This document shows, one piece after another, positions 19,160-62,947 of a stretch of 64,000 bases of DNA. This DNA is from Sipunculus nudus (lineage: Eukaryota; Annelida; Sipuncula; Golfingiida; Sipunculidae). Positions within the stretch are counted from its first letter, which is position 1, and each line of letters opens with the position of its first letter. The stretch spans positions 24,796,008 through 24,860,007 of the forward strand of contig CM049313.1 of the NCBI GenBank assembly GCA_026874595.1, read 5' to 3'. The position numbers were made by a program, and so were the translations under genes. The notes beneath the pieces are model-generated. The model ran no database searches. It saw only the letters and a program-made list of their open reading frames with translations, and was not told where the DNA came from.

Positions 19160-21263
19160 TCTACAGGACACTAAATGACAATGTTTTGAAGATAACAGGC
19201 TACAGAGCACTAGATGATAGTGTTTTGTATATTAAAGGCTACAGGACATTAGATAACAGTGTGTTGTATATTGCAGGTTACAGGGCACTAGATGATAGTG
19301 TTTTGTATAATACAGGCTACAGAACACTAGATGATAGTGTTTTGTATAATACAGGCTACAGGAATGTAAATGACAGTGTGTAGTATATTACAGGTTACAG
19401 GACACTATATGATAGTGTTTTCTATAATACAGGCTACAGAACACTAAATTATAATGTTTTGTATAATACAGGCTACAGGACAGTAGATGACAGTGTTTGT
19501 ACAATATAGGCTACAGGACACTAGATGTCAATGTCTAGTATATTACAGGTTACAGGACACTAGATGACAGTGTTTTGTATAATACAGGCTACAGGACAAT
19601 AGATGATAATGTGTTGTATATTACAGGCTACAGGAAAGTAGATGACAGTATGTTGTATAATACAGGCTACAGGACAATAGATGATAATGTGTTGTATATT
19701 ACAGGTTACAGGACACTAGATGACAGTGTTTTGTATAATACAGGCTACAGGACAATAGATGATAATGTGTTGTATATTACAGGCTACAGGACACTAGATG
19801 ACAGTGTTTTGTATATTACAGGTTACAGGACACTAGATGACAGTGTTTTGTAAATAAAAGGCTACAGGACACTAGGTGACAGTGTGTTGTATATTACAGG
19901 TTACAGGACACTAGATGACAGTAGTTTGGATATAACAGGCTACAGGACAGTAGTTCACAGTGTTTCGAATTTACAGACTACAGGACACTAGATGACGAGG
20001 TGTGGTGAATAACAGGCTACAGGACCCTGGATGTCAGTGTTCTGTACATCACATGTTACTACAGGACAGTAGATGACAGTGCTTTGTATAATACAGACTA
20101 CAGGATATTAGATGACAGTGTGTTGAATATTACAGGCTACAGGACACTTGATGACAGTGTTTTGTATATTACAGGCTTCAGGACACTAGATGACAGTGTT
20201 TGTACAATACAGGCTACAGGAAACTAGATGACATTGTGTTGTATGTTACAGGTTACAGGACATTAGATGATAGTGTTTTGTTTATTACAGGTTACAGGAC
20301 ACTAGATGACAGTGTGATGTATAATACAGGGTACAGAACACTAGATGATAGTGTTTTATATAATACAGGCTACAGGGCACTAGATGACAGTGTGTTGTAT
20401 AATACAGGCTACAGGACACTAGATGACAGTGTGTTGTATATTACAGGCTACAGGACAGTAGATGACAGTGTGTTGAATATTACAGGCTACAGGACACTAG
20501 ATGACAGTGTGTTGTATATTACAGGCTACAGGACAGTAGATGACAGTGTGTTGTATAATACAGGGTACAGGACACTAGATGACAGTGTGTTGTACATTAC
20601 AGGCTACAGGGCACTAGATGACAGTGTGTTGTATATCACAGGTTACAGGACACTAGATAAGAGTGTGTTGTATATTACAGGCTACAGGACACTAGATGAC
20701 AGTGTTTGTACAATACAGGCTACAGGAAACTAGATGACAGTGTTGTATAATACAGACTACAGGACACTATATGACAGTGTTTTGTAAATTACAGGTTACA
20801 GGACACTAGGTGACAGTGTTTTGTAAATAAAAGGCTAAAGGACACCAGGTGACAGGTTGTTGTATATTACAGGACACAGGGCACAAGATGACAAGTTGTG
20901 TAGTTTTCCCTGTAGAACTACTGCAGGACAATAGATGACAATGTTTTGTATATAACAGGCTACATAACACTAGATGATAGTTTTTTTTTGTATAATACAG
21001 GCTACAGAACACTAGATGACACTGTTTTGTATAATACAGGCTACAGGACACAAGATGATAGTGTGTTGAATATTACAGGCCACAGGACACGTGATGACAG
21101 TGTTTTGTATATAACAGGCTACATAACACCAGATGATAGTGTTTTGTATAATACAGGCCTCTGGAAATTGGATGACAGTGTGTTGTATATTACAGGTAAC
21201 AGGACACTAGATAAAAGTGTATTTGTATATTACAGGTTACAGGACAGTAGAGGACAGTGTGTG

Positions 21264-21441
21264 TGTGATATCCTTGTTTAATATTATTTGGTGTTATTAC
21301 CATAATACGGTAATCTTTAGTCTTTACGGCCGGAAGTGGTAATCCGGCATGTGTAGCTTTGGTATCCAGCGGGCCGCCATTAAAGCTTGAATACAAGTCA
21401 CTGAGTTGTGATTTTATGGACGTATCATGAGAGATATGACA
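21264..21441 (+). repeat. 5' LTR (178 bp)
   Basis: Begins TGTGATATCC and ends GAGATATGACA (TG...CA). It differs from the 3' LTR at 5 of 178 positions by my manual comparison, which suggests a fairly recent but not new insertion. Confidence 0.93.
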
Positions 21442-22488
21442 CTGGCGACGAGCTGAACGGGAACTTTATTGTCAATATGGATAATCTGCCAGTATTTCTT
21501 TCACAGTTTGGATTCCCAAAGACAATCAAAACAGATAATGGTGCTCCATTTAATTCAGAACAGTTTCGACAATTTGCTGAATACAGTGGATTCCAGCACA
21601 GACGCATTACTCCGAGATGGCCGCGAGCCAATGCTCAAGCCGAGTCTTTCAACAAACACTTAATGAAGTTCATTAGAGCAGCCCGTGTTGAACAAACAAA
21701 CTGGAAACGCGAATTATTTCGGTTCGCGCGTCGATACAGAGCTACACCACATCCTTCTACAGGATTTGCCCCAAACAAACTTTTATTCGCTCATGAACCT
21801 CAGACACGTTTACCTCAAATAGAGCCACAGCAACCGGACTCGACAACAGATAAGCAGGCAAAAACAAATGATGCACAGGCTAAAGCCAGAATGAAAGCTT
21901 ATGCGGACTTTATATAATCATGCAAAACCTTGTAACATATCTGTTGGTGACCATGTCTATGTACGCAATGACACCAAGCAAAACAAGCTGTCCACACCTT
22001 TCAACACACAACACTACGTGGTCACTGCAAAGAAAGGCAGTATGATAACTGCAACCTCAGGGACTCGTCATGTCACTCGAAACTCCTCCCAGTTCAAAAA
22101 GACACTCTGTCCATCGAATGATATGTTTTCTGATACTGAGTTGGAGGAGGACGGCAATACAAGTCAAAACAGTCAACGCAGTGTTGATGACAGTAATCTC
22201 TGTGAAACTGAAAACACAAGTCCGAGTTCTGTAGCTGCCTACAGACAAACCCATGCAACCCCTAGCACATCACTGCCAGGAACCCCACCAACAAATACTC
22301 CAGTTGCCTTGTACAGTTCAGGTGCGCCTCAGCAGCCAGAAATATCCCCAGCAACATCAGATCCTGCTGTGAGGAAAACAACCAGAAAACGACACCCCCC
22401 CCTGAATATTTTAGAGACTATGTGCTTCGTTAATATCATTCTCTGCACAAAGATTAACTTGCATGTCAATCAAACATTTTGGACATGA
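21442..22488 (+). pseudogene. Ty3/gypsy integrase fragment, frameshifted
   Basis: The first frame (to about 21915) holds the second aspartate and the glutamate of the integrase DDE triad in the contexts IKTDNGAPFNS and RANAQAESFNKHL; the part with the first aspartate is deleted. Near 21905-21915 the frame ends and continues in another frame with VGDHVYVRNDTKQNKLSTPF and a following TRNSSQFKK, the C-terminal chromatin-side domain usual for this clade. A low-complexity S/T/P-rich tail ends in a basic TTRKRHPPLN stretch. It is not functional. Confidence 0.9.
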
Positions 22489-22685
22489 AAGACTGAGCAT
22501 TCTGTCGCATACTAACAGTTTCATAAGCTCTGTATACGTTTATCATTTACAGTAATTATATTTTAATTTATAACCAGCACAGTAATATTTTAAACAGATA
22601 ATGCAACAAATATGATCACCAAGACATTACAATCTTTACTTTCTAATCATCATGTAGGGATACAAACCTCTAAGGTGATGAGGGA

Positions 22686-22863
22686 TGTGATATCCTTGTT
22701 TAATATTATTTGGTGTTATTACCATAATACGGTAATCTTAAGTCTTAACGGCCGGAAGTGGTAATCTGGCATGTGTAGTTTTGGTATCCAGCGGGCCGCC
22801 ATTAAAGCTTGAATACAAGTCACTGAGTTGTGATTTTATTGACGTATCATGAGAGATATGACA
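22686..22863 (+). repeat. 3' LTR (178 bp)
   Basis: Same termini and length as the 5' LTR. It is followed immediately by GTGTG and resumption of the satellite. Confidence 0.93.
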
Positions 22864-25800
22864 GTGTGTTGTATATTACAGACTATAGGACAGAAGATGA
22901 CAGTGTGTTGTATATTACAGGCTACAGGACAATAGATGACAGTGTTTTGTATATTACAGGCTACAGGACAGAAGATGACAGTGTTTTGTATATCACAGGA
23001 TACCGGACAGAAGATGACAGTGTGTTGTATATTACAGGCGACAGGACAATAGATGAGAGTGTTTTGTATATTACAGGCTACAGGACAACAGATGAGAGTG
23101 TTTTCTATAATACAGACTACAAGACAGTAGATGATAATGTGTTGTATATTAAAGGCTACAGGACAATAGATGAAAGTGTGTTGTATATTACAGGCTACAG
23201 GACAGAAGACGAGAGTGTGTTGTATATAACAGGCTACATGACAATAGATGATAGTGTGTTCTATAATACAGGCTACAGGAAAGTAGATGACAGTGTGTTG
23301 TATATTACAGGCTACAGGACAATAGATGAGAGTATTTAATATATTACAGGCTACAGGACATAGATGAGAGTGTTTTGTATATTACAGGCTACAGGACAGG
23401 ACAGTAGATGAGAGTGTGTTGTATATTACAGGCTACAGGACAATAGATGAGAGTGTTTTATATATTACAGGCTAAAGGACAATAGATGAGAGTGTTTTGT
23501 ATATTACAGGCTACAGGACAGTAGATGAGAGTGTGTTGTATATTACAGGCTACAGGACAATAGATGAGAGTGTTTAGTATATTACAGGCTACAGGATATA
23601 AGATGAGAGTGTGTTGAATATTACAGGCTTCAGGACAATAGATGAGAGTGTTTTGTATATTACAGGCTACAGGACAGTAGATGAGAGTGTGTTGTATATT
23701 ACAGGCTACAGGACAATAGATGAGAGTGTTTTGTATATTACAGGCTACAGGACATGAGATGAGAGTGTGTTGTATAATACAGGCTACAGGACAATAGATG
23801 AGAGTGTTTTGTATATTACAGGCTACAGGACAGTAGATGAGAAAGTGTTGTGTATTACAGGCTACAGGACATTAGATGAGAGTGTTTAGTATATTACAGG
23901 CAACAGGACATTAGATGAGAGTGTTTTGTATATTACAGGCTACAGGAAAAGAGATGAGAGTGCTTTGTATATTACAGGCTAGAGGACAGTAGATGAGAGT
24001 GTGTTGTATATTACAGGCTACAGGACAATAGATGAGAGTGTTTTGTATATTACAGGCTACAGGACAATAGATGACAGTGTGTTGTATAATACAGGCTACA
24101 GAACAATAGATGAGAGTGTTTTGTATATTACAGGCTACAGGACAGTAGATGACAGAGTGTTGTATATTACAGGCAACAGTACAATAGATGAGAGTGTTTA
24201 GTATATTACAGGCTACAAGACATTAGATGAGAGTGTGTTGAATATTACAGGCTACAGGTCAATAGATGAGTGTGTTGTATATTACGGGCTACAGGACAAT
24301 AGATAACAGTTTGTTGTATATTACAGGCTACAGGACAATAGATGAGAGTGTTTTGTATATTACAGGCTACAGGAAAATAGATGAGAGTGTGTTGTATATT
24401 ACAGGTTACAGGACAATAGATGAGAGTGTTTTGTATATTACAGGCTACTGGACAATAGATGATAGTGTGTTCTATAATACAGGCTACAGGAGAGTAGATG
24501 ACAGTGTGTTGTATATTACAGGTTACAGGACACTAGATGATAATGTGTTGTATATTACAGGTTACAGGACACTAGATGATGTTTTGTATATTACAGGCTA
24601 CAGGACAGTAGATGAGAGTGTGTTGTATATTACAGGCAATAGGACAATAGATGAGAGTGTGTTGTATAATACAGGCTACAGAACAATAGATGAGAGTGTT
24701 TTGTATATTACAGGCTACAGGACAGTAGATGACAGTGTGTTGTATATTACAGGCTACAGGACAATAGATGAGAGTGTTTTGTATATTACAGGCTACAGGA
24801 CAACAGATGAGAGTGTGTTGAATATTACAGGCTACTGGACAAAAGATGAGAGTGTGTTGAATATTACAGGCTACAGGACAATAGATGACAGTGTGTTGTA
24901 TATTACAGGCTACAGGACAATAGATGAGAGTGTTTTCTATAATACAGACTACAAGACAGTAGATGATAATGTGTTGTATATTAAAGGCTACAGGACAATA
25001 GATGAAAGTGTGTTGTATATTACAGGCTACAGGACAGAAGACGAGAGTGTGTTGTATATAACAGGCTACATGACAATAGATGATAGTGTGTTCTATAATA
25101 CAGGCTACAGGAAAGTAGATGACAGTGTGTTGTATATTACAGGCTACAGGACAATAGATGAGAGTATTTTATATATTACAGGCTACAGGACAATAGATGA
25201 GAGTGTTTTGTATATTACAGGCTACAGGACAGTAGATGAGAGTGTGTTGTATATTACAGGCTACAGGACAATAGATGAGAGTGTTTTATATATTACAGGC
25301 TACAGGACAATAGATGAGAGTGTTTTGTATATTACAGGCTACAGGACAGTAGATGAGAGTGTGTTGTATATTACAGGCTACAGGACAATAGATGAGAGTG
25401 TTTAGTATATTACAGGCTACAGGATATTAGATGAGAGTGTGTTGAATATTACAGGCTTCAGGACAATAGATGAGAGTGTTTTGTATATTACAGGCTACAG
25501 GACAGTAGATGAGAGTGTGTTGTATATTACAGGCTACAGGACAATAGATGAGAGTGTTTTGTATATTACAGGCTATAGGACATGAGATGAGAGTGTGTTG
25601 TATAATACAGGCTACAGGACAATAGATTAGAGTGTTTTGTATATTACAGGCTACAGGACAGTAGATGAGAGTGTGTTGTATATTACAGGCTACAGGACAA
25701 TAGATGACAGTGTTTTGTATATTACAGGCTACAGGACAATAGATGACAGTGTGTTGTATAATACAGGCTACAGAACAATAGATGAGAGTGTTTTGTATAT

Positions 25801-50827: not shown

Positions 50828-53800
50828 CTGTGGAAAAAAATGGGCAACACGTATGACAAAACGAATTGGGTGGCTCTGAAGGCATGGATAGCTATGAACG
50901 CGTGCTTTATTAAAAATCGGCACAGGTCAGTCATATTTAAACTAAATCATAAAACGTGTATTCTGTGTGGTTTAACGTACCCAGTACTGGATTCCAAGGG
51001 TAATTTTTCATTATTCTGGATCTGAGGTAATCTCACCACAATCGTTAACATATATCAAAGTATAGTCTGCCGTTATCTTTACTGTGTACCTGGGTATATG
51101 CTTTACCCTTATTTTTGCTGAGAGTATGAAATAATATTCTATAAGCGTTATCTTGTGTCAATGGTTGTGTAACATTACGTACATATCCAGGGCGGGCTGA
51201 CGGTAAGCAGACTGCTGTAATGCTGAAGGTGACGTACCGTTAGTTCAGAGTTTTTCTTCTTTGACTTGTTGAATGCCTCCCTGGCCAACCTCTCGTACAC
51301 CAGACCTCTGTTCCTGGACATGGTGACGGCTTTCCACCACTTCATCCTGACGGCCGGGTTCATCATCCGTCTAGTCTTACCGTCACCGTTCATCATCACT
51401 ATAACAATAATAAGCAGTTCATCACCCGCCTGGTCTTACCGTCACCGTTGATCATCACTATAACATTATAAACTGTTCATCATCCGTCCATTCTTACCGT
51501 AACCATTCATTACCGCTATAACATTAATAAACAGTTCATCATCCGTCTGGTCTTACCGTCACAGTTCATCACCACTATAACATTAATAAACAGTTCATGA
51601 TCCGCCTGGTCTTACCGTCATCGTTTATCACCACCCATACATTAATAAACCGTTCATCATCCGTCTGTCTTTGGGCCAGTGGTGTGGGGGGTCTAAAGCC
51701 TGGTTGAGTCTAAAAAAAAAAACGCTTGGTGGCTACAGTCGTCGGGGGTGGATCTAGGATTTAAGAAAAGGAGGGGTCCTACCCAGAAGACTAATGGCAA
51801 AACCTTAAAAAAGAGGTCCCGAGGTACGGAAAAGGGGGTGGGCGGGTTCATGTCACAAATCTGGTCTGAAATCCTTAAAATGGTTGCGGCGGTTGAAAGA
51901 GGGGATCCGGAGCCCCTGGCAGCGCCCCCCCCCCCCCCCCCCCGGATGCGCTTCTAGTCAAGTGGACAATGGGCTAACCTCTTTGATTACGCTCCTTGGA
52001 CTTGTAGTATGTCTCCCACATGACGCTTACAAAGGCCTTGAGGACGGGATGGTTGTGGTATACCTCAACTGTCAGCATCCCAAGGTACGCCCGGAAACCT
52101 GAATTTATAGACAGATTATTCTTCTAATCGCTGTGCTAGTCAGAAACCTACCACTTCAGACATAGGGGATATATCGTTTACAGTTTAGTATGTTCCCACT
52201 GTTGTTAACGTATAAACTATTAATTGTGTTTAGCTAAACCAGCAAAACGTAGGGAAGACTACTACCAATTCAGTTAAAGTAGAAATAAAATTATATAATT
52301 TATAATAAATGTCTAATTTCACTTGCGGGACAATTACAGTATAGAAATTCACGGGGTGATTGTGTGCGATGAGCAAGACACTAGATATTTTATTTTTCCT
52401 AGCAATTCACATACTGGACCAGGTATGTTATAAAAAATGCAAAATTTTTGTTAAAAGAGCTCACCTGAGTCAAATCGCTCGAAACCACGCATCATGAGAT
52501 TACAATCTAGACGTCCAAGAAGTAAAACCCCAAACACCACAGACATGAGAATCCGCTTCAGACAGGAAAAGAGGCCCAGAATAATATTAAACAACATCAG
52601 CAGGTAGGAGACCACGTGGAAAACCCTCCTGTAAAATGTGAAAGGAACTGAGATCAAGAATAATATTAAACAACATCAGCAGGTGGCAGACCACGTGGAA
52701 AATCCTCCTGTAAAATGTGAAAGGAACTGAGATCAAGAATAATATTAAACAACATCAGCAGGTGGCAGACCACGTGGAAAATCCTCCTGTAAAATGTGAA
52801 AGGAACTGAGATCAAGAATAATATTAAACAACATCAGCAGGTGGCAGACCACGTGGAAAATCCTCCTGTAAAATGTGAAAAGAACTGAGATCAAAAATAA
52901 TATTAAACAACATCAGCAGGTGGCAGACCACGTGGAAAATCCTCCTGTAAAATGTAAAAGGAACTGAGATCAAGAATAATATTAAACAACATCAGCAGAT
53001 GGCAGAACACGTGGAAAATCCTCCTGTAAAATGTGAATGGAACTGCGATCGAGAAAAATAATATTAAACAACATCAGCAGGTGGCACACCATGTGGAAAA
53101 TCCTCCTGTAAAATGTGAAAGGAACTGAGGTCAAGAATAATATTAAACAACATCAGCAGGTGGCAGACCACGTGGAAAATCCTCCTGTAAAATGTAAAAG
53201 GAATTGGGATCAAGAATAATATTAAACAACATCAGCAGGTGGCAGACCACGTGGAAAATCCTCCTGTAAAATGTAAAAGGAACTGAGATCAAGAATAATA
53301 TTAAACAACATCAGCAGATGGCAGACCACGTGGAAAATCCTCCTGTAAAATGTAAAAGGAACTGAGATCAAGAATAATATTAAACAACATCAGCAGGTGG
53401 CAGACCACGTGGAAAATCCTCCTGTAAAATGTAAAAGGAACTGGGATCAAGAATAATATTAAACAACATCAGCAGATGGCAGACCACGTGGAAAATCCTC
53501 CTGTAAAATGTGAATGGAACTGCGATCGAGAAAAATAATATTAAACAACATCAGCAGGTGGCAGACCACGTGGAAAATCCTCCTGTAAAATGTGAAAGGA
53601 ACTGAGGTCAAGAATAATATTAAACAACACCAGCAGGTGGGAGACCACTTGGAAAACCCTCCTGTAAAATGTAAAAGGAACTGGGATCAAGAATAATATT
53701 AAACAACATCAGCAGATGGAAGACTATTTGCATTCCATGTTCAGATATTCTATAACAGGGCATGTGTGAAAAGCTTCACTTAATTATCCCTAAATGTTAA

Positions 53801-56800
53801 CCCACGTTTTGAATGTTTAAATTAAATGAAAAATATAAATAACACAGTGCTGCAAATTGAGCACAAAAAAAACAATTTTTCGTATACTGAAAATATATAA
53901 TGGTCTGGTATAAAAGATGGATACAAAAAGCAGCTCACAGGTGCATTGAAAAGATTGTTGAGAGTCCATAAGTGACATACACGACTGGAAGGAATAATCG
54001 TCTGTCGTGACCTACCTGTTGTTTAAGGCCATGTATTTTCCTCTCCCCTGACAGAAGAACACCCTGGCTATAATCAGCTGAGCAAAATATATACCGAGAC
54101 TGACTACCAAGGTTGGCCTAGGAAACAGAATATGTTATCTGATAAAATGTAACTGTCAAATTATTTTAAAACTAAATTTGGATATTGTTTGCCAATTTAT
54201 ATTCTTCAAATTTCTTGCATTGTACTTGTATTGCAAATAAAATTACTGAATTCGGCATAAATACATTTTAGTACGAGTGATACAATTATACAAATATAAG
54301 TTTTTTACATATGTTCTGTCAGCTCGTACATTACTGGCAGCTCTCAATTTCTACGATATACTGGTATATGTCTTAAGTTACAATAGCTTTAACATTTTAT
54401 TCAGTGAATGATTAAATTCTGTTTGAATAAGATTTAGTTGTATAACCATTTGAAATGCCCATCAACTGCCTATTTTACTTTTTTAAATATACCTTTTAAA
54501 TTGATTAGAATCAACTAAACTCTATACATGGTTTAAGTTTAAATAGTATTCAACTTTTGTTAATAAAATGATTGGCAAATTAATCGAATCTAAGCATCAA
54601 ATATAATTCACAGCCAAAATAAGGAAGTATGTGTGTCATTTGTCAGAGGCTTGCATATTGTGAGAGAGCTTCATCTAGTATCATTCATTATGATGAGACA
54701 GCGAATTGCTATATTTATGTCTGTTACATGAAATTGCCATATTTAAATCTGTTAAATGGAGTAAACCCATGCACTGAAAACTTACCATAATCTCTTAATC
54801 TGCGTGATAGCAAAAGTCGAATATCCGTCTCTCAGCGGAAGAATAATGAGAATCGTCAACACAAAAATAATTAATACAGCCACGGCCAGAAAAATGATAT
54901 AGCCTGGAGGGAGAAAAGAAAAAATTATTTTAATATTTTATTTAACAATGTAATGGATGTATGCCATTTACTGTGATAAGCGGTAGGTGCTGAAGGTATA
55001 CCCATAGGACATCCTAGACTGTTTTCTTAAATAAAAATACATTGAAGGTTCTATGAAGAACCCTACACATTGGTTCCACTAAGAACATTTTAAGGTTCCC
55101 CACTCAGTCCACTGTGAAGAACCGTAGAGGGTTCTTTTCTGATCCTCCAAAAAGAACCCCGCTTGAAGGTTCTAGCTCGAACCTTAAAAGGTTCCCCATT
55201 CAGTCCACTGTGAAGAACCCTTTTGGGTCCTAGTTGGAACCCTTTTTTCTAAGAGTGTAGGTGCCGCAGGGTTATGTTTTTTATTTCAGACACGGATGCC
55301 CAATTCGACTATCATTCTGTATATATAAAATATATAAAATGTGGGCTCTCTTGAACAGAACGTAACAACAGTTTAATTGCTGAGTTTCTGCTACCCAACA
55401 CTCAGACTCATCTATAGCAGTTAGTTAAGGAATTGTTTTTAAATCATTTTCGATTAATGAAAGACAACATTAATTGATTATTACATTAAACTTTTGTAGT
55501 ACATGAAAATAAAGAATATTCATGCTCTCACGCGGCAAGTTCTCGTAACGTTGCCATGATTAATAAACACATTCTTCTACAGTAAACTGTGGCTTGCCGC
55601 AGTTGACCGTATATAGGCCCCGTTCGCAGGCACTCGACATATAAACAAACCTTGTGGGCGATAATAAAAGCATTACAGAGCCCCTCCCGTCCTTGCTCTC
55701 CAAACAGTTCTCAACTCTAATAAAACTTGTTCTTTTCCTTACTTTGAGTTGCTTTTTAGTTGGTTTATGCAGTTACCTCATTAACGGAACACATTTTTAT
55801 GACACGGCTTCTTGGTCTCCGTTCCCTCGAATTACTGAAGAGCTAAAATTTCATCCGAGGGAACGGAGGCCAAGAAGCCGAGTTATAAGTATGTATTTAT
55901 TTAACTTTACGTAGGGGTAAACAATTGTTATTAGTGCTAAGATCTGTTTTTAATGATAGGTCCATGGCCTGTTGGTCGTACTGTCTTTTGAATGAGGATG
56001 AAGGTATTCATATGATAAGAATGATATATTATTTTTAAGCCTTCTGGATTTCAGTTTTTATATGCACGGGATAGGAATAATCAAGAAGTCATAACGTGTC
56101 GTTCAGATATTAGAGCGAATTTCTGAGGTCCTATAATGAGATTTTACCAATAATGCCATGAGGCAACGGCGGGGTTCGTACAGGGATAAGAACGGTTTGT
56201 ATAGCAAGAACAGGAGGGGCTCTGTACTCCTTCTATTATCGCACACAGGGTCTGTTTATGTTTCGGGATCCTGTTTTCTACGTTCACCAACCACTGTGTC
56301 ACGGCAGCGTCACGGTAACCATGTCCGGCCTTGTTTTTCTTACGGTATCGTATGACAATTGGCCACAAGCCGGGGTGACAAGAAGATTTGCCGTGGCTAA
56401 GCAACAAGAGTTTGACACCCTAAAACCTTTTTTTTCATCAAGCCATGAGCTGTACTTTTAGGGGCACCGTTCTCTTCCGTTTGTTTTGAATATTAACTCG
56501 TCATTCTCGTCCTCTACGTTGTCACACGGTAAAGGCCACGTCCTATTAAGTCCTCCCACGACCTTCAAGAACTTTGTGAACAGTAGACAGAACGTGGTCA
56601 ATGAGACCTTCGCAAGGGAGATGGGGAGCTGTCGGTTTTGAGGATTTAAGATTTTCTGCCATGCATTTTCTGTTCAATAGAACAACGGTTATCTTAATCG
56701 ACCGGGAGGGGAACCAACCTAAGGGGAGAACGAAACAAAGGGCTCCGTCTAGCAATTAGAAACTAGACTTGGCCCTCGTTGGTCATACACAGAGGAGCCC

Positions 56801-59800
56801 CAATCTAGCAATTCCACAATTTGCCGGCATTTTAGCAACTTTGCATTTCTCTGAAGCCTCCGGTAGATTGACCTGCGGCACAGGTCACGTTCAGAACGAA
56901 CTTCATGGTCGTGGTAAACCGTAAAGAGAACGTGGTAAGCGTCGGGTGCTAATCAGTGTACTATCTTCGCTGTGATATAATCAGAATAAAATTGTTTTGG
57001 AATTCTTTGCATACGAATACTGCATACCTAACCCTTTGAGATAATTTTCTAAACCAGAATAAACTAATTTCTTCAATCATCAACGAACACGACCAGTCAC
57101 TGATAAATTCCGTTGATTACCATAACACTTCTACTCACCATAAAGGATATATGCAATCTGATAACCGGAATACCGGAAAGTGGAAGCCTGAAAAAAATAA
57201 ACACGTGGTAACGGCCGTTAACATTTATAATGTATAATTGTAATGAACGAGGAAATTAAGAATAAGACACAATAGCAATATTTCGCATAATGGACTTGCC
57301 CTATTACTACAGTGCCTCATACTTACGCTTTATCAAAAGTGAACAGTCTAACATGTCACGTCGCCTTGTGTATATATCTAACAGTAAAAATCGGTTACTC
57401 TTTCACAAACACAGCCACGGTGGAATGCAAGTGTTCCTGTCTTGCTGACAGTAACCTACCACAGATGGTGGATATATATCACGCTGTGCGAGTCAGTACC
57501 CTACCACTTCACCCATGGGGATTTATCATGCTGTGCGAGACAGTAACCTACCACTTCAGACACGGGGAATATATCCCGCTGTGCGAGTCAGTAACCTACC
57601 ACTTCAGACACGGGGGATATATCACGCTGTGCGAGTCAGTAACCTACCACTTCAGACATGGGGGATATATCACGCTGTGCGAGTCAGTAACCTACCACTT
57701 CAGACACGGGGGATATATCATGCTGTGTGAGTCAGTAACCTACCACTTCAGACATAGGGGATATATCACGCTGTGCAAGTCAGTAACCTACCACTTCAGA
57801 CATGGGGGACATATCACGCTGTGCGAGTCAGTAACCTACCACTTCAGACATGGGGGATATATCACGCTGTGTGAGCCAGTAACCTACCACTTCAGACACG
57901 GGGGATATATCACGCTGTGTGAGTCAGTAACCTACCACTTCAGACATGGGGGATATATCACGCTGTGCGAGTCAGTAACCTACTACTTCAGACATGGGGG
58001 ATATATCACGCTGTGTGAGTCAGTAACCTACCACTTCAGACATGGGGGACATATCACGCTGTGCAAGTCAGTAACCTACCACTTCAGACATGGGGATATA
58101 TCACGCTGTGTGAGCCAGTAACCTACCAATTCAGACACGGGGGATATATCACGCTGTGCGAGTCAGTAACCTACCACTTCAGACATGGGGGATATATCAC
58201 GCTGTGCGAGTCAGTAACCTACCACTTCAGACATGGGGGACATATCACGCTGTGCGAGTCAGTAACCTACCACTTCAGACATGGGGGATATATCACGCTG
58301 TGTGAGCCAGTAACCTACCTAACCTACCTCTTCAGACATGGGGGATATATCACGCTGTTCGAGTCAGTAACCTACCTCTTCAGACATGGGGGATATATCA
58401 CGCTGTGCGAGTCAGTAACCTACCACTTCAGACATGGGGGACATATCACTTCAGACATGGGGGACATATCACGCTGTGCGAGTCAGTAACCTACCACTTC
58501 AGACATGAGGGATATATCACGCTGTGTGAGTCAGTAACCTACCACTTCAGACATGGGGGATATATCACGCTGTGTGAGTCAGTAACCTACCACTTCAGAC
58601 ATGGGGGATATATCACGCTGTGCGAGTCAGTAACCTACCACTTCAGACATGGGGGACATATCACTTCAGACATGGGGGACATATCACGCTGTGCGAGTCA
58701 GTAACCTACCACTTCAGACATGGGGGATATATCACGCTGTGTGAGTCAGTAACCTACCACTTCAGACATGGGGGATATATCACGCTGTGTGAGTCAGTAA
58801 CCTACCACTTCAGACATGGGGGATATATCACGCTGTGTGAGTCAGTAACCTACCACTTCAGACATGGGGGATATATCACGCTGTGCGAGTCAGTAACCCC
58901 CCCTTTCAGACATGGGGGACATATCATGCTGTGCGAGTCAGTAACCTACCACCTCAGACATGGGGGACATATCACGCTGTGCGAGTCAGTAACCTGCCAC
59001 TTCAGACATGGGGGATATATCACGCTGTGCGAGTCAGTAACCTACCACTTCAGACATGGGGGATATATCACGCTGTGCGAGTCAGTAACCTACCACAGAT
59101 GGTGGATATATATCACGCTGTGCGAGTCAGTACCCTACCACTTCACCCATGGGGATTTATCATGCTGTGCGAGACAGTAACCTACCACTTCAGACACGGG
59201 GAATATATCCCGCTGTGCGAGTCAGTAACCTACCACTTCAGACACGGGGGATATATCACGCTGTGCGAGTCAGTAACCTACCACTTCAGACATGGGGGAT
59301 ATATCACGCTGTGCGAGTCAGTAACCTACCACTTCAGACACGGGGGATATATCACGCTGTGTGAGTCAGTAACCTACCACTTCAGACATAGGGGATATAT
59401 CACGCTGTGCAAGTCAGTAACCTACCACTTCAGACATGGGGGACATATCACGCTGTGCGAGTCAGTAACCTACCACTTCAGACATGGGGGATATATCACG
59501 CTGTGTGAGCCAGTAACCCACCACTTCAGACACGGGGGATATATCACGCTGTGTGAGTCAGTAACCTACCACTTCAGACATGGGGGATATATCACGCTGT
59601 GCGAGTCAGTAACCTACTACTTCAGACATGGGGGATATATCACGCTGTGTGAGTCAGTAACCTACCACTTCAGACATGGGGGACATATCACGCTGTGCAA
59701 GTCAGTAACCTACCACTTCAGACATGGGGATATATCACGCTGTGTGAGCCAGTAACCTACCAATTCAGACACGGGGGATATATCACGCTGTGCGAGTCAG

Positions 59801-62800
59801 TAACCTACCACTTCAGACATGGGGGATATATCACGCTGTACGAGTCAGTAACCTACCACTTCAGACATGGGGGACATATCACGCTGTGCGAGTCAGTAAC
59901 CTACCACTTCAGACATGGGGGATATATCACGCTGTGTGAGCCAGTAACCTACCTAACCTACCTCTTCAGACATGGGGGATATATCACGCTGTTCGAGTCA
60001 GTAACCTACCTCTTCAGACATGGGGGATATATCACGCTGTGCGAGTCAGTAACCTACCACTTCAGACATGGGGGACATATCACTTCAGACATTGGGGACA
60101 TATCACGCTGTGCGAGTCAGTAACCTACCACTTCAGACATGAGGGATATATCACGCTGTGTGAGTCATTAACCTACCACTTCAGACATGGGGGATATATC
60201 ACGCTGTGTGAGTCAGTAACCTACCACTTCAGACATGGGGGATATATCACGCTGTGCGAGTCAGTAACCTACCACTTCAGACATGGGGGACATATCACTT
60301 CAGACATGGGGGACATATCACGCTGTGCGAGTCAGTAACCTACCACTTCAGACATGGGGGATATATCACGCTGTGTGAGTCAGTAACCTACCACTTCAGA
60401 CATGGGGGATATATCACGCTGTGTGAGTCAGTAACCTACCACTTCAGACATGGGGGATATATCACGCTGTGTGAGTCAGTAACCTACCACTTCAGACATG
60501 GGGGATATATCACGCTGTGCGAGTCAGTAACCCCCCCTTTCAGACATGGGGGACATATCATGCTGTGCGAGTCAGTAACCTACCACCTCAGACATGGGGG
60601 ACATATCACGCTGTGCGAGTCAGTAACCTGCCACTTCAGACATGGGGGATATATCACGCTGTGCGAGTCAGTAACCTGCCACTTCAGACATGGGGATATA
60701 TCACGCTCTGTGAGTCAGTAACCTACCACTTCAGACATGGGGGATATACCACGCTGTGTGATTCAGTAACCTACCACTTCAGACATGGGGGACATATCAC
60801 GCTGTGCGAGTCAGTAACCTACCACTTCAGACATGGGGGACATATCACGCTGTGCGAGTCAGTAACCTACCACTTCAGACATGGGGGATATATCACGCTG
60901 TGCGAGTCAGTAACCTACCACTTCAGACATGGGGGATATATCACGCTGTGTGAGTCAGTAACCTACCACTTCAGACATGGGGGATATATCACGCTGTGTG
61001 AGTCAGTAATCTACCACTTCAGACATGGGGGACATATCACGCTGTGCGAGTCAGTAACCTACCACTTCAGACATGGGGGACATATCACGCTGTGCGAGTC
61101 AGTAACCTACCACCTCAGACATGGGGGACATATCACGCTGTGCGAGTCAGTAACCTACCACTTCAGACATGGGGGATATATCACGCTGTGCGAGTCAGTA
61201 ACCTACCACTTCAGACATGGGGGACATATCACGCTGTGCGAGTCAGTAACCTACCACTTCAGACATGGGGGACATATCACGCTGTGCGAGTCAGTAACCT
61301 ACCACTTCAGACATGGGGGACATATCACGCTGTGCGAGTCAGTAACCTACCACTTCAGACATGGGGGACATATCACGCTGTGCGAGTCAGTAACCTACCA
61401 CTTCAGACATGGGGGATATATCACGCTGTGTGAGTCAGTAACCTACCACTTCAGACATGGGGGATATATCACGCTGTGCGAGTGATAACCTACCACTTCA
61501 GACATGGGGGACATATCACGCTGTGCGAGTCAGTAACCTACCACTTCAGACATGGGGGATATATCACGCTGTGTGAGTCAGTAACCTACCACTTCAGACA
61601 TGGGGGATATATCACGCTGTGTGATTCAGTAACCTACCACTTCAGACATGGGGGACATATCACGCTGTGCGAGTCAGTAACCTACCACTTCAGACATGGG
61701 GGATATATCACGCTGTGTGAGTCAGTAATCTATCACTTCAGACATGGGGGATATATCACGCTGTGTGAGTCAGTAACCTACTACTTCAGACATGGGGGAT
61801 ATATCACGCTGTGTGAGTCAGTAACCTACCACTTCAGACATGGGGGATATATCACGCTGTGTGAGTCAGTAACCTACCACTTCAGACATGGGGGATATAT
61901 CACGCTGTGCGAGTCAGTAACCTACCACTTCAGACATGGGGGACATATCACGCTGTGCGAGTCAGTAACCTACCACTTCAGACACGGGGGACATATCACG
62001 CTGTGCGAGTCAGTAACCTACCACTTCAGACATGGGGGACATATCACGCTGTGTGAGTCAGTAACCTACCACTTCAGACACGGGGGACATATCACGCTGT
62101 GCGAGTCAGTAACCTACCACTTCAGACATGGGGGATATATCACGCTGTGTGAGTCAGTAACCTACTACTTCAGACATGGGGGATATATCACGCTGTGTAA
62201 TTCAGTAACCTACCACTTCAGACATGGGGGATATATCACGCTGCATGTGCCATCCTCTGTTTCCCTTCAACAACCACAGCATGTGCTTCCTACGGAGGAA
62301 TTACAAAAATTACATTTAACGAAACCATCTCTTGAAATTCATAAGTATGCAATTCTCTTTTATTAAAGAGAACATTTTGATCCATAGTCCTCAATCAGGA
62401 TGCATCACTGAGGAAAACCGACATACCGACATACACTAAACAGATTGCAGACCGTCCATTGAACCTCGCGTATGTTAATCACAAAATAATCAACAAAATA
62501 ATAAAATATGAATCAAGTATGAGATGCCAAAAAAGCACGTACAAAAAGGAAACAACTATACTTTTCCCAAAGGTATCATAATACAATTTCAAATTCTGTT
62601 TTTCTCAATTAGGTAATATATGTACAGATTGTAAATAATAACAAATATATGTCCATATATTTATGTTTCCCATCGCACATTACCAACCAGAACGACTGGA
62701 GGGTATATACATTCCCTGACTTTTGACCTTAATTCGCCTTAAATCAAATATGCAGCTTTATGGAAGATAATGAGCAATATATATGTACATATACTCTTAT

Positions 62801-62947
62801 TCTCTTTGTCAAAATATTTGGAAACTCTATGGGTTTTATATTGTTTGCAACATGAATTGTGTAGTACTTACCTGTAGCATAAAATCATATGAATCATGAA
62901 GACACACTGTAGCGCGAACGACAGGTAGTTACATACCACAAACTCTT
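50738..62947 (-). CDS. STRA6-like: STRA6-like receptor gene B, C-terminal half (multi-exon, partial)
   Basis: Second STRA6-family gene, same strand as gene A and upstream of it, so the two are a tandem pair. Nine exons: 62872-62947, 62214-62289, 57139-57187, 54786-54903, 54016-54117, 52465-52628, 51979-52098, 51238-51398, 50738-50827. All have GT/AG borders, all phases agree, and the last seven total 804 nt, exactly 268 codons with the stop. Diagnostic matches to human STRA6 are FRYSGYQIAYILYG, IKRLWPTLVVSLG, NNRRVFHVV, GMLTVEVYHNHPVLKAF and GLVYERLAREAFNKSKKK. The N-terminal half lies right of 62947, probably outside the window. Its introns contain three minisatellites derived from its own splice junctions. 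Confidence 0.93.
51238..51398 (-). CDS. STRA6-like: Gene B exon (basic C-terminal segment)
   Basis: Acceptor TTGTTATAG, donor GTACGT. It begins MMNGDGKTRRMMNPAVRM and contains SRNRGLVYERLAREAFNKSK, corresponding to human [21 protein letters not shown], the calmodulin-binding C-terminal region of STRA6. The basic, amphipathic character is kept. The acceptor and exon start are repeated in the flanking 58-59-bp array. Confidence 0.88.
51359..51676 (-). repeat. 58-59-bp array of a 3' splice site plus exon start
   Basis: Five full units and a partial one, starting about 51359, 51418, 51476, 51535, 51594 and 51653. Read on the minus strand, each carries GTTATAG (the acceptor; changed in the unit at 51594), a TGATGAAC-like exon start and GACGGTAAGAC. 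The unit nearest the gene supplies the authentic acceptor and start of exon 51238-51398. Confidence 0.88.
51735..51958. mobile_element. hAT-like nonautonomous element, candidate
   Basis: GGGGGTGGATCTAGG at the left and, inverted, AGAAGCGCATCCGGGGG at the right resemble degraded hAT-type termini. It includes a C run at 51926-51942. No target duplication is recognisable, so the call is weak. Confidence 0.3.
51979..52098 (-). CDS. STRA6-like: Gene B exon (FRAYLGMLTVEVYHNHPVLK)
   Basis: Acceptor ATAAATTCAG, donor GTTAGC. It matches human YRNFLKIEVSQSHPAMTAF closely (EV, HP, AF conserved) and continues SVMWETYYKSKERNQR. An internal GTAAGC after KAF is a possible alternative donor but would not keep phase. 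Confidence 0.92.
52129..52174 (-). repeat. Isolated monomer of the 48-bp repeat in another intron
   Basis: About 46 bp matching the 57.4-62.2 kb array unit with about two mismatches, including the exon-tail part (CATGTCTGAAGTG type) and a GTAGGT donor, here followed by TTCTG. It sits in the intron upstream of exon 51979-52098, about 5.3 kb from the array. Confidence 0.88.
52465..52628 (-). CDS. STRA6-like: Gene B exon whose 5' end seeds the 79-bp array
   Basis: Acceptor ACATTTTACAG, donor GTGAGC. It encodes RVFHVVSYLLMLFNIILGLF, then SCLKRILMSVVFGVLLLGRL and DCNLMMRGFERFDS, matching human RRVLYAATFLLFPLNVLVG through the region before DPGYYTYRNFL. The first 51 nt are repeated 13 more times upstream. 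Confidence 0.93.
52578..53719 (-). repeat. 79-bp array of a 3' splice site plus exon start
   Basis: Fourteen acceptors (ACATTTTACAG then GAGG) spaced 79 bp, twice 82 bp; the plus-strand G of each lies at 52631, 52710, 52789, 52868, 52947, 53026, 53108, 53187, 53266, 53345, 53424, 53503, 53585 and 53664. Each unit is about 51 nt of exon 52465-52628 plus about 28 nt of the intron end with its pyrimidine tract. The lowest-coordinate copy is the authentic exon start. Confidence 0.95.
53720..54015. other. Intron remainder between array and upstream exon
   Basis: AT-rich intron; nothing recognised. Confidence 0.5.
54016..54117 (-). CDS. STRA6-like: Gene B exon (helix PTLVVSLGIYFAQ)
   Basis: Acceptor GTTTCCTAG, donor GTAGGT. 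It encodes PTLVVSLGIYFAQLIIARVF, then FCQGRGKYMALNN, matching human [21 protein letters not shown] and the following TNRRV. The downstream intron contains the 79-bp acceptor array. Confidence 0.92.
54118..54785. other. Gene B intron
   Basis: AT-rich intron with no recognisable element. Confidence 0.6.
54786..54903 (-). CDS. STRA6-like: Gene B exon (helix and re-entry to LWP)
   Basis: Acceptor CCCTCCAG, donor GTAAG. It encodes a strong transmembrane helix (YIIFLAVAVLIIFVLTILII), then LRDGYSTFAITQIKRLW, the last aligning with human FRSLESSW. It leaves TG, completed to Trp. Confidence 0.92.
54980..55272. mobile_element. GGTTCT/AGAACC-rich MITE-like element
   Basis: Many short inverted GGTTCT and AGAACC motifs and a direct repeat of TCAGTCCACTGTGAAGAACC (about 55103 and 55199). 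It ends in CTAAGAGTGTAG. A diverged 14-nt direct repeat, GTAGGTGCYGMAGG, lies on both sides (54983 and 55257), possibly a target duplication. Family not identified. Confidence 0.45.
55805..55880. other. 25-bp-stem hairpin
   Basis: CGGCTTCTTGGTCTCCGTTC and its continuation CCTCG (55805-55829) are complementary to 55856-55880 with a single T/G exception, around a 26-nt loop. It lies in an intron of gene B. Confidence 0.8.
55881..57138. other. Gene B intron, GC-richer unassigned block
   Basis: 56140-56960 is richer in GC than the surrounding intron, with recurrent CGTGGT and ACGTTC-type words. It could be a decayed transposon, but I recognise no coding motif or termini. Confidence 0.35.
57139..57187 (-). 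CDS. STRA6-like: Gene B exon (ASTFRYSGYQIAYILYG)
   Basis: A 49-nt exon with acceptor TTTTTTTCAG and donor GTGAGT. It matches the human CWMSFSAYQTAFICLG segment at the same place. Phase 0 in, one base (G) out. Confidence 0.9.
57449..60720. repeat. 1634-bp higher-order duplication in the 48-bp array
   Basis: Landmark variants recur 1634 bp apart: the CAGATGGTGG unit (57460, 59095), the CACCCATGGGGATTTATCATG region (57508, 59142) and AACCTACCTAACCTACC (58310, 59944). The period is 34 units plus 2 bp. Confidence 0.88.
57449..62243 (-). repeat. 48-bp array of an exon end plus 5' splice site, about 100 copies
   Basis: On the minus strand each unit is CAGCGTGATATATCCCCCAT, then GTCTGAAGTG, then GTAGGTTACTGACTCACA. 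The first 30 nt equal the end of exon 62214-62289 and the rest is its donor and intron start. The highest-coordinate copy is the real exon end. The period is 16 codons, so plus-strand frames such as VTYHFRHGGYITLCES repeats stay open; these are antisense artefacts. Confidence 0.96.
62214..62289 (-). CDS. STRA6-like: Gene B exon whose 3' end seeds the 48-bp array
   Basis: Acceptor CCTCCGTAG, donor GTG then GTAGGT. It encodes KHMLWLLKGNRGWHMQRD and then ISPMSEV, aligning with the human cytosolic loop (ALHRGAALDLSPLHRS). It enters with one base and exits in phase 0, as the next exon requires. Its last 30 nt and the adjoining intron bases are the unit of the neighbouring minisatellite. Confidence 0.88.
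62290..62871. other. Gene B intron
   Basis: AT-rich intron between two exons; no other feature. Confidence 0.6.
62872..62947 (-). CDS. STRA6-like: Gene B exon (helix, EFVVCNYLSF)
   Basis: Acceptor TATTTCAG, donor CTACAG then GTAAGT (near-consensus). It encodes EFVVCNYLSFALQCVFMIHM followed by ILCYR, matching the human [24 protein letters not shown] helix. It takes two bases from the previous exon and leaves AG. Confidence 0.9.

Follow-up and report, generated by a model that had tools for sequence, protein, structure and literature searches.

The 64,000-nucleotide window, i.e. the whole stretch of DNA analysed here, carries on its minus strand a gene that by its sequence is STRA6-like, related to the vitamin A receptor STRA6, and in which three exon edges are repeated in tandem arrays. 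The relevant features, all on the minus strand, are listed below in the direction of the gene, with the basis of each call in brackets.

62872..62947, minus strand: preceding exon, EFVVCNYLSFALQCVFMIHMILCYR (GT-AG frame)
62214..62289, minus strand: authentic 76-nt coding exon (Pfam with neighbours, three paralogs, canonical borders)
62208..62213, minus strand: authentic donor GTAGGT, the 5'-most of 98 (frame, donor count)
62202..62204, minus strand: TGA met on read-through, common to all 97 decoy donor paths (frame reading)
57449..62213, minus strand: portion of the 48-bp array that lies in the intron; of its 97 decoy donors, 91 have GT and 77 GTG/GTAGGT (TRF, donor count)
57139..57187, minus strand: next exon, ASTFRYSGYQIAYILYG (paralogs and frame)
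54786..54903, minus strand: exon, YIIFLAVAVLIIF... (paralogs and frame)
54016..54117, minus strand: exon, PTLVVSLGIYFAQL...ALNNR (paralogs and frame)
52578..53724, minus strand: 79-bp array, 29 nt of intron end with acceptor TTTTACAG plus 50 nt of exon start, 13 decoys (TRF, frame)
52465..52628, minus strand: authentic exon; the 3'-most 79-bp copy supplies its start (frame)
52129..52175, minus strand: solitary 48-bp unit in a different intron, 30 nt upstream of the exon that follows (DNA search)
51979..52098, minus strand: exon, GFRAYLGMLTVEVYHNHPVLKAF... (GT-AG frame)
51358..51671, minus strand: 59-bp array, acceptor plus exon start, 4 decoys (TRF, frame)
51238..51398, minus strand: authentic exon; the 3'-most 59-bp copy supplies its start (frame)

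Four joined exons, 62214-62289 and its downstream neighbours, matched the Pfam family RBP_receptor (PF14752) with E=7.5e-16 and 58.4 bits against a gathering cut-off of 25; the host gene resembles this STRA6/RBP receptor family in sequence and we claim no difference from it. An open frame of 340 aa with GT-AG borders runs across nine consecutive exons, and NG86 dN/dS, computed with our own script, is 0.119 against paralog C (330 codons, 9 of 9 exons), 0.095 against paralog D (329 codons, 9 of 9 exons) and 0.185 against paralog B (217 codons, 7 of 9 exons). The intact frame and these low ratios suggest that regular splicing goes on undisturbed in the host gene. Exon 62214-62289 has canonical borders (acceptor ccgtag/GAAGCA, donor GAAGTG/gtaggt) and is kept in three paralogs on the same contig (C8:58694369-58694449, C8:58742082-58742174 and C8:24765041-24765316), whose versions read KHMLWLMKG...SPMSEV, ...SEL and ...SDL, each followed by a GT donor. 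The exon proposed in the earlier note is therefore real by its Pfam match with neighbours, its three paralogs and its borders. It might still be argued that the exon call is wrong or the gene a pseudogene, the array merely ending in a coding-like stretch, since the 25-aa exon on its own gave no Pfam match and the top PDB match of the joined exons, 5sy1 (STRA6), is weak (E=0.015). We find this scarcely credible, as it is already largely contradicted by the joined-exon Pfam match, the three paralogs, the intact canonical frame and dN/dS values of 0.095-0.185. For the presumed terminal exon no convincing relative was found (best E 0.14), so that the gene's 3' end is provisional.

Each 48-bp unit consists of the last 30 nt of exon 62214-62289, its donor and 18 intronic nt, and the outermost copy of the array is the exon's own last 30 nt (62214-62243, minus strand). 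Aligned without gaps to the 97 decoy units, the exon tail matches at 30/30 positions in 38, 29/30 in 36 and 28/30 in 8 (at least 28/30 in 82 of 97), at 25-27/30 in a further 8 and at no more than 16/30 in 7; as controls, the best match in window positions 1-50000 was 18/30, and 20 shuffles of the array gave 16-19/30. The proposed make-up of the unit, exon end plus donor plus intron, is borne out by this alignment, and the origin of the array from the exon edge can be read directly from its letters. The stated intronic share needs a qualification: the unit does hold 18 nt, but the first 18 nt of the real intron match the unit consensus unbroken over the first 12 nt only and then diverge. Similarly, the array of about 100 copies is confirmed (TRF, 57474-62243, 99.3 copies), whereas the estimate of about 99 decoys comes down to 97, given that we count 98 donor positions including the real one. 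Among these 98, GT is present in 92, GTAGGT in 88 and GTGGTAGGT in 78; for the decoys taken separately, GT is intact in 91/97 and the whole GTG/GTAGGT in 77/97.

A block of 1,634 bp (57466..59099, minus strand) is repeated in the adjoining stretch 59100-60733 at an identity of 1594/1634, which shows past expansion of the 48-bp array. The same doubling, in a single assembly, could be held to mean that the copy number is an assembly artefact and the true array much shorter or longer; yet 40 positions distinguish the two blocks, the contig measures 80.9 Mb and the existence of the array does not hinge on the exact count, so that we rate an artefact of this kind as very improbable. Two DNA searches of the 1.43-Gb genome, whose match counts are lower bounds, listed no places for the unit other than this array, one paralogous exon and the solitary intronic copy at 52129..52175; a query of two and a half units matched at least 45 places, 44 in the array plus that solitary copy. 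A dispersed repeat or mobile element was accordingly rejected as the nature of the unit, the matches listed being confined to the array and the one copy in the same gene. TRF did not find the 48-bp array in the homologous introns of the three paralogs, and because these keep the exon tail as a single copy with its donor, the tail predates the array.

At two acceptor edges the host gene carries arrays of mirror-image build, neither of which figured in the earlier note. The AG is intact in 13/13 decoy acceptors of the 79-bp array and in 3/4 of those in the 59-bp array, where one match lying 29 nt from its neighbour was left out of the count as spurious. From all 13 decoy acceptors of the former and all 4 decoy positions of the latter a stop is reached, and in each of the gene's three arrays the frame stays open only from the copy next to the exon body (donor 62213; exon starts 52628 and 51398). 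The 59-bp array is also present in paralogs C and D, with AG at the aligned place in 1/5 decoy acceptors and one more shifted by 2 nt; its exon was not found in the stretches examined of paralogs B (L016) and E (L012).

Two further repeats were considered as exon-edge arrays and rejected: a 49-bp array (L009), which begins 11 nt into an intron and lacks the donor, and a 101-bp array (L008), which lies about 100 nt away from an exon. When the 11 repeat units of the host gene were placed at random, three or more fell across an exon edge with P=0.0099, a post hoc figure obtained after dropping dinucleotide arrays and alternative-period TRF rows and with 8 of the 17 exons having approximate ends only. 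In a genome-wide sample, the longest open frame contained a TRF array (period of at least 10), or had one no more than 60 nt away, at 4 of 30 kinase loci (L020, L023, L037 and L046), which were drawn from 138 matches by score, a choice that favours long open frames, and taken without resolved exon borders; in L020, a repeat of 35 bp x 3.1 begins directly behind the frame. As to the lineage of the animal, the abalone lysin, molluscan haemocyanin and GFP families gave no match, but neither did their controls. A muscle myosin exon came nearest to PDB 3i5f, a squid structure (E=4.9e-57), with Myosin-6 entries next at 1.1e-56, too small a gap to decide; a mollusc or another lophotrochozoan would be a guess.

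As the earlier note had read, continuing from the real exon yields V-G-Y and then TGA, and this is the outcome for 97/97 decoy donors. The 5'-most donor is thus the only one among 98 that leaves the STRA6 frame open, and on this ground, together with the low dN/dS, the gene model gives good support to the claim that splicing must rely on this site, a use that we infer from sequence. The computed U1 pairing of the real donor (-8.8 kcal/mol, weaker than the -14.0 kcal/mol of a consensus donor) is equalled by 79 of the 97 decoys and exceeded by 4, with 14 weaker. The nearest decoy is a weaker variant, GTA/GTAGGT at -5.3 kcal/mol, so strength could help at that one place; with 14/97 decoys weaker than the real donor, however, such a neighbour is unremarkable. 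We also considered RNA structure that hides the decoys and rejected it: the predicted openness of the donor 9-mer under local folding is no different (0.0012 for the real donor against a decoy median of 0.0011), and at the real exon-intron joint the 4 surrounding nt come out slightly more closed than those of the median decoy (openness 0.0065 versus 0.0123). Since neither U1 pairing nor local folding singles out the real donor, position is the cue that remains and probably the one by which the cells must choose the correct splice site.

Selection on the decoy donors was not seen in the unit variation. Across the 90 of 98 units used (8 with more than 10 differences from the consensus were dropped), the donor nonamer varies about like the rest of the unit (mean variable fraction 0.030 versus 0.040), and 24 of the 40 nine-nt windows (the donor's own included) are no more variable than the nonamer. 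These values bear on a poison switch, in which decoy donors or acceptors would be used in some tissue or condition, leading to an early stop and nonsense-mediated decay and thereby setting the amount of receptor. Such a switch would fit the stop met from 97/97 decoy donors, the GT kept in 91/97 and the U1 pairing equal to that of the real donor in 79/97, but it would hardly be expected to come with donor columns whose conservation does not exceed that of the remaining unit, with no 48-bp array in the corresponding introns of three paralogs, and with AG at the aligned place in only 1/5 of the 59-bp decoy acceptors that paralogs C and D carry. We therefore consider it very unlikely, and the control function suggested earlier for decoy use finds no support, for lack of special donor conservation and of the array in the paralogous introns.

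Turri et al. reportedly described in 1995 a minisatellite with multiple splice donors in human IFI6 (6-16), which is like the host gene in that minisatellite repeats supply the donors. Some repeat donors might by analogy give in-frame protein variants here, 48 nt being a multiple of 3, and the unit contains an acceptor-like CACAGCG (88 occurrences) from which the 27 nt to the donor read RDISPMSEV in frame. A branch-point-like CTGAC, however, lies only about 9 nt upstream of this repeat-internal acceptor, which is probably too close, and on simple donor use every decoy meets TGA after three codons, so that no in-frame exon extension by a repeat donor was found among the 97. In IFI6, according to the available text of PMC4526556, two downstream repeat units do act as further donors, giving three mRNAs. 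The chance of a comparable use in the host gene appears to us minimal.

The arrays look like an extreme case of the exon-boundary repeats, or "mirages", known from amphioxus, and are a new and very large example of this already known kind. Mirages have been described for Adh3, the globins BflGb6 and BflGb9, troponin C and PGBD5, affecting 5' as well as 3' boundaries and with AG/GT in many repeats, and in the available text their authors state that regular splicing is undisturbed (PMC3087553, PMC3902484). In the host gene the 48-bp, 79-bp and 59-bp units likewise span an exon-intron boundary, the authentic boundary lies at the array edge beside an intact exon (62213, 52628 and 51398), and AG/GT is found in many repeats (GT 91/97; AG 13/13 and 3/4). 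The difference is one of scale, with copy numbers in the amphioxus accounts of 3 and 6 in two BflGb6 haplotypes and 2 to 7 in PGBD5 as against 97 decoy donors here, and also of extent, in that three boundaries of the host gene are affected and one array is common to three paralogs. Human internal tandem repeats offer a second parallel: as far as the text of PMC2812944 extends, these are minisatellites at exon-intron borders, as in the host gene, found in recently duplicated genes within segmental duplications, with an average 30-bp unit and 4 repeats, and are linked to new introns and alternative transcripts, whereas in the host gene no sign of a new intron was seen.

We propose that a 48-bp tandem duplication arose across the 3' edge of the coding exon, taking in 30 nt of exon, the donor and 18 nt of intron, and that the duplicated unit then expanded within the following intron to give 97 extra donor copies with the authentic exon end outermost. 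The two acceptor edges would have followed the same course with their 79-bp and 59-bp units, the authentic copy staying nearest the exon body. In our judgement the arrays are probably neutral "mirage" minisatellites born of exon-edge duplication, and they would be tolerated through exon definition, in which the sites nearest to each other on either side of the exon are paired. We infer neutrality from a single array in a single assembly, where extra conservation was not seen, and exon definition may be what keeps the decoys out of use. In the available text of PMC9225289, minigenes under exon definition that carry two strong, identical 5' splice sites use the upstream one exclusively. Against this, about 60% of all human events, before matching for strength, favour the downstream 5' site, and weak competing donors lead to skipping of larger exons. 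For 3' sites, exon definition merely reduces the upstream preference (PMC9225289), and the acceptor arrays are consequently less well explained.

A broader reading, which we hold only tentatively and at somewhat less than even confidence, is that exon definition creates a niche for exon-edge arrays, that proximity alone selects one among about 100 near-identical sites, and that such arrays mark exon-defined genes. A duplication of this sort would be invisible in the protein only where sites are paired by nearness, and arrays could therefore grow as long as the authentic copy adjoins the exon body; if this is true, the host gene would be a demonstration of it, having 97 decoy donors plus 16 decoy acceptors with AG, spread over three exon edges. 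It has long been asked how the spliceosome distinguishes an authentic site from decoys identical to it, and minigenes with two copies are a frequent means of study. The host gene would offer a natural dose series within one transcript, with 97, 13 and 4 decoys at three exon edges, donors and acceptors alike, and the paralogs without the 48-bp array as controls; RNA from the animal would measure the strength of cross-exon proximity and whether fidelity drops with copy number.

The window covers C8:24796008-24860007 in a genome of 1.43 Gb, and the host gene, on its minus strand, is STRA6-like: four of its joined exons match the RBP_receptor family of Pfam (E=7.5e-16), and the best PDB match of its exons is STRA6 (5sy1, E=0.015). 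Nine consecutive exons, from 75269-75422 to 51238-51398, form a 340-aa open frame with GT-AG borders throughout (exon coordinates beyond 64,000 extend the window numbering into the fetched stretches L007-L009), and paralog comparison adds, among the matches listed, further 5' exons to at least ~89.3 kb in the same numbering. Family or exon matches were found at four other sites on the same contig (C8), at ~24.76 (paralog B), 58.69 (C), 58.74 (D) and 66.1 Mb (E). Using our own NG86 script, dN/dS of the host gene was 0.119 against C (330 codons) and 0.095 against D (329 codons), both rough because synonymous divergence is high (pS 0.63 and 0.65), and 0.185 against B (217 codons from 7 of the 9 exons, including one short, doubtful 13-codon match). 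By these measures purifying selection seems to act on the STRA6-like protein.

Exon 62214-62289 has the sequence KHMLWLLKGNRGWHMQRDISPMSEV, with GTAGGT directly behind it. The earlier note had described an array of about 100 copies built from this exon end and its donor, which is borne out by 98 donor positions, the authentic one at 62213 and 97 decoys reaching outward to 57459, with 74 of the 97 decoy units differing from the 30-nt exon tail at no more than one position. Among all 98 donors GT is present in 92, GTAGGT in 88 and GTGGTAGGT in 78, and donor-to-donor spacing is 48 in 83 of the 97 gaps (45, 47, 57 or 71 in the remainder). A 1,634-bp block occurs twice inside the array (1594/1634 bases identical). 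The intron measures 5,026 nt, or ~271 nt if the array is removed; the copy number, counted in one assembly, could vary among haplotypes. In another intron of the gene, one solitary 48-bp unit with a tandem-duplication junction occupies 52129-52175 and is separated by 30 nt from exon 51979-52098 downstream of it.

The same exon end is found in paralogs B (...ERDLSPMSDL, then gtaggt), C (...ERNISPMSEV, then gtatgt) and D (...ERNISPMSEL, then gtatgt), and TRF detected no 48-bp array in their homologous introns; no counterpart of the exon was seen in E among the matches listed. Because B, C and D keep the exon end while their homologous introns lack the array, the exon edge is, on this sequence comparison, the older and the array the younger. 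Two more arrays are its mirror image, repeating an acceptor edge instead of a donor edge:

79-bp array, 52578-53724, minus strand: the last 29 nt of the intron, acceptor TTTTACAG included, plus 50 nt of exon start
59-bp array, 51358-51671, minus strand: acceptor plus exon start, exon 51238-51398

The authentic exon 52465-52628, conserved among paralogs in the matches listed, holds the 3'-most of the 14 copies of the 79-bp unit, and the acceptor is intact in all 13 decoys. For the 59-bp array of the host gene, 3 of 4 decoys keep the AG. This array also stands before the same exon in C and D (TRF 3.2 and 3.7 copies), and for that reason probably predates the split of the host gene, C and D; in the stretches fetched for B and E this exon did not turn up. 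In C and D together only 1 of 5 decoys has AG at the aligned place, and one more AG is shifted by 2 nt.

Exon-edge arrays account for 3 of the 11 repeat units considered in the gene, a post hoc enrichment (P=0.0099). Other repeats were also observed. A 49-bp array of ~10 copies (L009:3345-3857) begins 11 nt into a host-gene intron, its donor excluded. Downstream of the gene or within its last intron lies a 39-bp minisatellite (~693 + 54 copies, at 22858-49840 and 19161-21260), whose plus-strand unit contains TTTTGTATATTACAG followed by G, acceptor-like in appearance; it is split by a segment at 21264-22866 that has 181-bp direct repeats at its two ends (96.7% identical); an open frame inside this segment, 21405-21917 (+), is retroelement integrase-like by eye. 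Elsewhere, one of 30 sampled kinase loci has a 35-bp repeat of 3.1 copies starting right after the kinase open frame (L020:2471-2581), and five successive matches in one gene at C2:44848559-44852248 fall on roughly one region of the myosin head (~110-204, overlap 122-152), which suggests mutually exclusive exons.

On conceptual read-through all 97 donor decoys give SEV-VGY-stop via TGA at 62202-62204, so the truncation predicted earlier from V-G-Y and an immediate TGA would apply to every one of them. Conceptual splicing likewise reaches a stop from every one of the 13 acceptor decoys in the 79-bp array and from 4/4 decoy positions of the 59-bp array, and within each of the three arrays the frame is kept only by the outermost site. 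Of the two options in the earlier note, reliance on the 5'-most site agrees with this result, and of a control switch we found no sign. Decoys serving as a regulatory switch are improbable given that their donor columns are about as variable as other unit columns, that the homologous introns of three paralogs do without the 48-bp array, and that the decoy acceptors of the shared 59-bp array are mostly decayed in C and D (4/5 without AG at the aligned place).

Computed U1 pairing, compared with the authentic donor, is equal in 79 of the 97 decoys, stronger in 4 and weaker in 14, and does not single out the authentic donor among the 98; computed local folding gives it no advantage over the decoys either. 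The authentic site of each of the three arrays lies closer than any other copy to the partner site of its own exon. Exon definition would pair the nearest sites across the exon, thereby choosing the authentic copy, and the site is probably picked by position in this manner. In PMC9225289, when an exon-defined minigene offered a pair of identical strong 5' splice sites, splicing used the upstream one exclusively; before strength matching, human 5' events favour the downstream site in about 60%, weak competing donors lead to skipping of larger exons, and for 3' sites upstream preference is merely reduced by exon definition. Given these cautions, exon definition would be a good explanation for the donor side and a weaker one for the acceptor side.

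Searches of an open-access library turned up no account of these arrays. A donor minisatellite in IFI6 was reportedly described by Turri in 1995. Some repeats of this human minisatellite are used as donors (PMC4526556), and short human arrays at exon borders appear in PMC2812944. The closest known counterpart in the literature covered is the amphioxus mirages (PMC3087553, PMC3902484), in which the exon-intron boundaries of Adh3, globins, troponin C and PGBD5 are tandemly repeated and which reportedly leave regular splicing undisturbed. The STRA6-like arrays, known here from genomic DNA alone, agree with these mirages in every sequence feature compared; the STRA6-like gene is unusual in its scale of 97 decoys, in carrying three exon-edge arrays with donor and acceptor edges both represented, and in that one of the three, the 59-bp array, is common to three paralogs.
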